From Candidatus Baldrarchaeum yapensis (GTDB lineage Archaea > Asgardarchaeota > Baldrarchaeia > Baldrarchaeales > Baldrarchaeaceae), in the NCBI GenBank assembly GCA_016840465.1, contig JAEOSH010000002.1, positions 1 to 36,781 on the forward strand: a DNA stretch of 36,781 bases. The letters are read 5' to 3'. A program made the translations under genes and the position numbers. Below, in pieces: positions 4,990-6,108 of this stretch. Numbering within the stretch: the first letter of the stretch is position 1; each line of letters begins with the position of its first letter. The notes below the pieces were generated by a model, which saw nothing but the letters and a program-made list of their open reading frames with translations, did no database searches and was not told the DNA's origin.

Positions 4990-6108
4990 TTATTGATTCA
5001 TTTGCCTTCGGAATTTAAACCATATCCTACACGTACCTTCTTGTGAAACCATGCAAGGACCATAAGGAGACGCGGGTGTACAGACTTTACCGAACAGTTT
5101 GCACTGCGGAGGGTATATTTTTCCTATTAGTACTAGATGACATGAACAACCGGGCAGAATATCACGCGATTGATGTTCTAACCTGATATCGAACTTTTTT
5201 CTCGCGTCAAAGTTTTCATAAGGCTTTCTAAGAGAGAATCCGGACTTTGGAACCCTACCAATTCCTCTCCAATGAGCGCTCACGGGTACGAATACTTCAT
5301 TCATCGTCTCTTGCGCTTTGACGTTTCCCTCATACTTTACACATCTTAAATACTCGTTTTCACACTTTATGTCATTTGTTACTATTTGTTTGAGGATCAT
5401 GAGGACCGCTATAAGGATGTCAGCAGGCTCAAAGCCGGCAATCACTGTTGGCATGTTATAGGCATCTGCAAATATTTCAAACGGCTTTACACCGATTATT
5501 GTGGCTACATGTCCTGGACATATGAAACCATCTATATGTAAGTCGCCAATACCTAGCAACAATTCCATTATCGGCGGTATTAGCCTATGTGAACAGAGTA
5601 TACTGAAGTTCTCGGGTGGGTCATTTAAAATTAAGGATGCAACTCCGGGTGCTGTTGTTTCGAAGCCTACCGAGAAGAATACTACTTCTTTATCCTTATA
5701 CTTCTTAGCAAGCTGGACAGCATCGATAGGACTATACACAATTTTAACATTGGCACCTTCAGCACGTGCTTTCCACAGCGAGCTATATGATGCCGGTACC
5801 CGTGTCATGTCTCCGAACGTTGCTAATATTACATTTTCTTGCTTTGCTAGGAAAATTGCTTCATCGATTTCTTTTGCCGGAACAACACATACAGGACACC
5901 CAGGACCTGGCAACAACTCCACATTTTCGGGAAGAAGATCCCGTATACCATGCTGTGTTATCGATTGTTCATGTGTCGGTGCCGGTCACTGACCGGCAGT
6001 CCCGCACACGTGCATGATTTTTATTTTTCCGTGTACTTCTCCTGACAATATTTTTAATTTCCTTCTAACATTCTTAATGAATTCCTTATCTCTACCGAGA
6101 CCTAGCAA
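4990..6108 (-). CDS. hypD: hydrogenase maturation protein HypD, interrupted by a 24-nt intervening sequence (5976-5999); predicted spliced product 364 aa
   Basis: The ORF track covers only 4990-5922. Upstream in frame, exon 1 reads from TTG at 6108: LLGLGRDKEFIKNVRRKLKILSGEVHGKIKIMHVCGT. After removing 24 nt it continues HEQSITQHGIRDLLPENVELLPGPGCPVCVV. This is the canonical HypD N-terminus with no other frame damage. Confidence 0.9.
5976..5999 (-). other. candidate minimal archaeal mRNA intron (BHB-like) inside hypD
   Basis: Minus strand GGGA^CTGCCGGTCAGTGACCGGCACCGA^CACAT. There is an 8-bp hairpin UGCCGGUC-AGU-GACCGGCA, GAC direct repeats at both junctions, and an in-frame TGA in the insert. 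Excision restores CGTHEQ. Confidence 0.75.

Follow-up and report, generated by a model that had tools for sequence, protein, structure and literature searches.

A candidate 24-nt bulge-helix-bulge intron in the hypD mRNA of an Asgard archaeon, with counterparts in other protein genes

Introduction

Can a gene still give rise to its protein when a stop codon lies just past an invariant motif? The question is raised by hypD of Candidatus Baldrarchaeum yapensis, an Asgard archaeon, in a stretch of 36,781 nucleotides (nt) that we refer to as the window (contig JAEOSH010000002.1, positions 1 to 36,781, from assembly GCA_016840465.1). On the minus strand of this window, 24 nt that include an in-frame UGA separate the two halves of the HypD frame. 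A sequence-only reading of the window had proposed that these 24 nt are an archaeal mRNA intron, and our comparative analysis supports that proposal: we put the probability at about 95% that they are a pre-mRNA intron of the bulge-helix-bulge (BHB) kind. The conclusion is drawn from genome comparison, and rests on inserts at the same codon of other hypD genes, a covarying BHB, restored reading frames, purifying selection, a pair of EndA genes and three more introns in the same genome.

Results

A stop-containing insert splits hypD within its CGTHE motif

The features of the locus are as follows.

5999..6108, minus strand: hypD exon 1, from a likely TTG start at 6108 to ...IMHVCG and the AC of the Thr codon
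5975..5998, minus strand: predicted 24-nt BHB intron, UGCCGGUCAGUGACCGGCACCGAC, with an in-frame UGA at 5988-5986
4990..5974, minus strand: hypD exon 2, from the A of the Thr codon and HEQS... up to the stop TAA
5962..6013, minus strand: whole BHB element with its exon flanks, as located by a covariance model built from nine relatives

Read on the minus strand, positions 6015-5963 give ...IMHVCGT / GCC GGT CAG TGA CCG GCA CCG ACA / HEQS..., so that the frame leaves off at IKIMHVCGT and is picked up 8 codons past CGT, at HEQSITQHGIR. Excision of 24 nt (5998-5975 or an equivalent phase) yields an uninterrupted HypD of 364 aa running from the TTG at 6108 to 4990, with a predicted junction of GTGCGGGAC|ACATGAAC in the RNA and IMHVCGTHEQSITQHGIR in the peptide. 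A GAC repeat at the two ends of the insert leaves the cut phase ambiguous by up to 3 nt. The spliced product scores 485.4 bits against TIGR00075, versus 471.7 when the insert is read through and 423.8 for the exon 2 open reading frame alone, and PDB 2z1d aligns with it over its full length, gap-free across the junction. A Shine-Dalgarno-like AAAGGAG stands at 6124-6130.

The split within the CGTH motif, the protein of about 364 aa after deletion and the otherwise clean frame had all been noted from the window sequence, and each is borne out: there is no other lesion in the 364 hypD codons. The window genome (2.27 Mb in 100 contigs, 96% complete) was also searched for a second, intact hypD, and the gene proved to be single-copy; the insert sequence likewise has no second occurrence in it. 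The genome also has an intact hypE and open reading frames resembling [NiFe]-hydrogenase large subunits, which means that HypD should be needed.

Nine other hypD genes carry different inserts at the same codon

Alignment of hypD among relatives, the comparison that the sequence-only reading had looked to, was run over 232 genomes of the phylum, 199 of which have a hypD above the cut-off; the window genome is the sole member of its family and genus in this collection. Nine further hypD genes have an insert at exactly the codon interrupted in the window. Four belong to species of Ca. Jordarchaeum (family f7), which NCBI places in the Promethearchaeati, i.e. the Asgard archaea, four to species of a second Asgard family (f13), and one lies on a contig of genome G202. 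The inserts measure 24 nt in the window, 16, 16, 17 and 17 nt in f7, and 28 nt in each of the f13 genes and the G202 contig, and none of the nine relatives' lengths is divisible by three. The frame break in these nine genes means that the HypD match starts immediately downstream of the CGT motif. Thus the position is conserved while the sequence varies, in three Asgard families and one contig of uncertain family. That contig (G202:C298, L180) is f13-like in the HypD tree, while its genome is nominally f29 and 9% contaminated, and it is probably misbinned. Stops within the hypD matches of another family, f3, were set aside: they fall away from the CGTH site, and the f3 genes read CGTHE with no insert.

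Both exons are under purifying selection in intron-bearing species; between two of these, dN/dS is 0.010/0.273 for exon 2 and 0.019/0.233 for exon 1.

The inserts and their flanks form a covarying bulge-helix-bulge

The canonical BHB consists of two 3-nt bulges with a 4-bp helix between them (PMC6379350). Each of the nine relatives' inserts, taken with its exon ends, follows one layout, in which an outer helix (UGUG-like/CAUG-like) is followed by CGGG, a bulge AC^N, a hairpin, CCCG and a bulge NN^N. Their arrangement is 3-4-3 and all four pairs of the central helix are standard, with weaker outer pairs in some. Cutting between residues 2 and 3 of each bulge takes out 16, 17, 24 or 28 nt and leaves GGG ACN CAY GAR (G-T-H-E) in 10 of 10 genes. 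With the ten sequences aligned, 93.8% of cells conform to the structure, and five pairs have changed on both sides; when the partners are slid against each other, pairing falls to at most 48.5%. The base pairs of the hypD BHB covary.

A covariance model trained on the nine relatives, with the window left out, finds the window element at 5962-6013 with 32.4 bits (E = 9.6e-7 in the window and 5.9e-5 in the whole window genome), compared with 20.3 bits for a sequence-only model. Part of this score comes from conserved exon letters, and the share due to pairing is the 12-bit gain. Over the 232 genomes, the model matches exactly the ten that bear the intron, and the window site is its sole match in its genome.

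In the window, the outer helix is UGUG/CAUG, the central helix CGGG/ACCG, the bulges ACU and ACA, and the inner stem GCCGGUC/GACCGGC. The element had earlier been drawn as a relaxed BHB. Aligned with its relatives it is the same 3-4-3 motif, close to canonical, with a single G.A mismatch at the fourth pair of the central helix; the register drawn earlier, adjacent to this one, is nonetheless the minimum-energy fold of the window. Owing to the GAC repeat, both registers yield an identical mRNA. No shuffled sequence of 200 matches the energy of the window fold (z = -2.78), and BHB placements below -10 kcal/mol number only 62 in about 92 million site-and-length combinations, so the fold exceeds chance expectation. 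Rfam families other than tRNA all stay below their gathering scores in the window. A group I, group II or spliceosomal intron is rejected, as 24 nt is too short for any of these.

A predicted heteromeric endonuclease and a proposed splicing route

The window genome encodes two EndA proteins. One is of the catalytic type (alpha), keeps the catalytic region and has PDB 3p1z_B and 3ajv_B as best matches (E = 1.5e-47), and the other (beta) is divergent and is missing the sequence surrounding the catalytic His. Together they are predicted to form a heteromeric splicing endonuclease of the (alpha,beta) type, and (alpha,beta)2 enzymes are known for their broad substrate range (PMC6379350). A pair of EndA genes is also present in most of 22 Asgard genomes that we checked, so the enzyme alone cannot explain which lineages bear the intron. 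Many host tRNA genes contain introns in 3-4-3 BHBs, such as one of 20 nt in tRNA-Lys, and 92-95% of tRNA genes in Freyarchaeia and Atabeyarchaeia contain introns (PMC11291895).

The route that we propose begins with the hypD transcript, whose exon ends and intron would fold into the BHB. Heteromeric EndA, with its catalytic alpha and structural beta subunits, would cleave both bulges, and an RNA ligase would then join the exons, AC|A thereby encoding the Thr of the invariant CGTHE motif. On an unspliced mRNA, translation would stop at the UGA three codons past CGT, and active HypD, hence [NiFe]-hydrogenase maturation, would therefore depend on splicing.

Three further predicted BHB introns at conserved motifs in the same genome

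A scan of 0.96 Mb (~42%) of the window genome ranked BHB folds by energy, keeping those whose excision would fuse two interrupted frames. The top-ranked matches are infB (aIF5B), the AmmeMemoRadiSam radical-SAM gene, porG and hypD itself. The three additional predicted introns each interrupt a conserved motif.

C67:54628-54657 = L270:17929-17958, minus strand: 30-nt BHB intron in infB (aIF5B) on the window's contig, at REAGGI|TQHIGA of switch I
C66:13809-13837 = L251:13809-13837, minus strand: 29-nt BHB intron in the AmmeMemoRadiSam radical-SAM gene, CNFTCPW|CQNW, within CxxxCxxC
C56:106639-106666 = L269:5877-5904, minus strand: 28-nt BHB intron in porG (pyruvate:ferredoxin oxidoreductase gamma), GIPVL|NTPMLGA

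When spliced, aIF5B is a 591-aa protein with a full-length family match (E = 1.4e-220 to PDB 5fg3), and the porG and radical-SAM products are full-length matches to PorC_KorC (E = 3.1e-67) and AmmeMemoSam_rS (E = 5.9e-81), respectively. The radical-SAM intron was detected independently as a 29-nt split relative to genome G007, where the gene is intact; a second radical-SAM paralog in the window genome (contig C45) is intact. The same scan over 0.4 Mb of G007 revealed no introns, and the host cbf5 is intron-free. Without energy ranking, the frame-joining scan returned 915 matches that are mostly due to chance, and it was the ranking that separated out the real ones.

Other candidates were rejected. 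The other strong BHB-like folds fall within open frames, opposite genes on the antisense strand, or in stretches resembling rRNA or tRNA, and no frame-restoring BHB accompanies any of the split genes flagged by tblastn. Among the latter, HdrA/MvhD are two overlapping genes and hydroxyacyl-CoA dehydrogenase/crotonase two adjacent ones. An acyl-CoA synthetase on contig C89 (L283 ~324-758) is a pseudogene with several stops and frameshifts, and another on C15 (L218:16060-16180) carries a 4-nt tandem duplication (AAGTAAGT), which is either a sequencing variant or a recent pseudogene. A major facilitator superfamily transporter on C3 (L206:6195-7277) has TGA and TAG at tryptophan-like positions and is otherwise intact.

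In two other genomes the second radical-SAM gene is split over much longer distances. In G002, of the same order, its halves lie ~1.5 kb apart within one 882-aa frame (C17:117441-119948), at about the same motif, and in G025 the halves of this paralog are 8 kb apart (C6:751891-761018). Judged from its layout, the in-frame insert of G002 looks like an intein.

History of the hypD intron

In a tree of HypD, the f7 and f13 sequences group together as a clade (100/99), and the wider clade in which the window sequence joins them (98/97) includes six intron-less sequences. The nearest genome relatives of the window (family f2, same order) have an intron-less hypD from another part of the tree. A single clade of all ten intron-bearing genes is not rejected (p-AU 0.132), and a single origin is thus neither shown nor rejected; one gain followed by losses, gene transfer, or two gains at one site are all possible.

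Alternative explanations

Three observations weigh against an intron. The window's own central helix contains a mismatch, a search of 0.96 Mb of genome sequence did not turn up the RtcB ligase motif, and the intron-less hypD genes within the same wider clade mean that loss, transfer or a second gain has to be assumed. How well, then, do other explanations account for the insert? With a broken frame and an in-frame stop, hypD could be a decaying pseudogene or the insert a recent inactivating insertion, and decay does occur in this genome, as the acyl-CoA synthetase on C89 illustrates. That true pseudogene, however, has many scattered frameshifts, whereas hypD has no second lesion, is single-copy and stands alongside an intact hypE. 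Inserts of 16-28 nt at an identical codon in ten genes, dN/dS far below 1 for both exons in species with a broken frame, and a like interruption of infB, a core translation factor, make decay very unlikely. A near-perfect hairpin in metagenome-derived sequence might also be suspected of having been inserted in silico or in amplification. Such an artefact is virtually excluded, as three further separately named metagenome assemblies contain the insert letter for letter, ruling out an assembly accident, and the inserts found at this site in relatives, which come from other data sets, differ from it.

Translational recoding is attractive at first sight in that the window insert has a length divisible by three and contains just one stop codon, which could be read through as tryptophan or selenocysteine, and hairpins occur in known signals for ribosome bypassing of the kind seen in T4 gene 60. 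The inserts of 16, 17 and 28 nt shift the frame, so readthrough cannot work in those genes. For bypassing, the landing codon would be ACA, AGG, ATT, ATA, AAA or AGA depending on the species, and it never matches the gene's own take-off Thr codon (ACT or ACA), while splicing gives ACN, Thr, in all ten; we regard either form of recoding as highly improbable. A further alternative is that EndA cuts the mRNA to down-regulate hypD, with ligation being rare. EndA cleavage outside the coding part is known from the 5' untranslated region (UTR) of HVO_1309 (PMC7714728). Exact restoration of the frame at four intron lengths, however, would be needed only if the ligated mRNA is translated, which leaves a role in processing alone with little more than a one-in-a-hundred standing. 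Splicing of a BHB intron thus remains the explanation that we favor.

Neighboring genes

The genes around hypD are listed below; the first overlaps the hypD start.

6092..6763, minus strand: MobA-like nucleotidyltransferase, upstream of hypD (best NCBIfam matches under curated cut-offs)
6767..7666, minus strand: AmmeMemoRadiSam system protein B, Memo family (TIGR04336, E = 6.9e-80)
4375..4905, minus strand: RimI-type N-acetyltransferase, downstream of hypD (TIGR01575, E = 1.8e-30)

Discussion

The closest known system is the cbf5 pre-mRNA of Crenarchaeota (Desulfurococcales and Sulfolobales), in which introns of 16-44 bp at the catalytic aspartate codon are cut by heteromeric EndA (PMC2738675). 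Apart from a 5' UTR case, this is the only earlier mRNA example according to PMC7714728. Like the hypD intron, the cbf5 intron is a short BHB intron at a conserved codon of a protein gene, that of a catalytic residue in cbf5, and it shares the cuts at the bulges by heteromeric EndA that we propose for hypD, conservation within lineages with losses, and a tendency to be missed by annotation (PMC2738675). The introns described here in hypD, infB, porG and the radical-SAM gene span 16-30 nt, within the known mRNA range of 16-44 nt, and, contrary to the earlier impression, an mRNA intron of 24 nt is not exceptionally short. The differences lie in the genes concerned, in the Asgard phylum and in the presence of several introns per genome; moreover, most cbf5 motifs are unconventional, while those found here are canonical 3-4-3 or one mismatch away. 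The mechanism would thus be the known cbf5-type pre-mRNA splicing, and it is the hosts, the genes and the number per genome that appear to be new.

Two other systems are related. The BHB introns of Freyarchaeia/Jordarchaeia and Atabeyarchaeia come from the same or related Asgard groups and resemble in size the tRNA BHB introns of the window genome; unlike the hypD intron, they are in tRNA genes, and HypD is not mentioned in the main text of that report (PMC11291895). The HVO_1309 mRNA of Haloferax volcanii is also a substrate of the splicing endonuclease, differing in that the cleavage concerns a 5' UTR and the host is a haloarchaeon (PMC7714728). The sequence-only reading knew of no intron in hypD, and we likewise found no report of introns in hypD, infB, porG or radical-SAM genes, or of Asgard mRNA introns, in the literature searched, which left out subscription papers and preprints.

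As in cbf5, all four introns break highly conserved motifs (CGTHE in hypD, switch I in aIF5B, the CxxxCxxC cluster site and NTPMLGA). Tentatively, at somewhat less than even odds, we suggest that several Asgard lineages maintain a standing set of BHB introns in protein mRNAs, four in ~42% of this genome and perhaps ten in total, and that these sit at invariant motifs because they derive from homing elements that targeted them and later lost their endonuclease genes. A homing-element origin has been considered for the cbf5 introns as well (PMC2738675), and the intein-like insert of G002 fits with a descent of the mini-introns from such elements.

In the papers searched, cbf5 of Crenarchaeota has so far been the sole gene with a confirmed intron in an archaeal coding sequence (PMC2738675, PMC7714728). 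Ten hypD genes and three further genes would extend such introns to the Asgard archaea, the archaeal kin of eukaryotes, and to an essential translation factor and core energy metabolism, suggesting that protein-gene introns are able to accumulate in an archaeal genome. Gene finders will take genes with such introns for broken ones. The set also offers comparative material on how such introns arise and why they reside in catalytic motifs.
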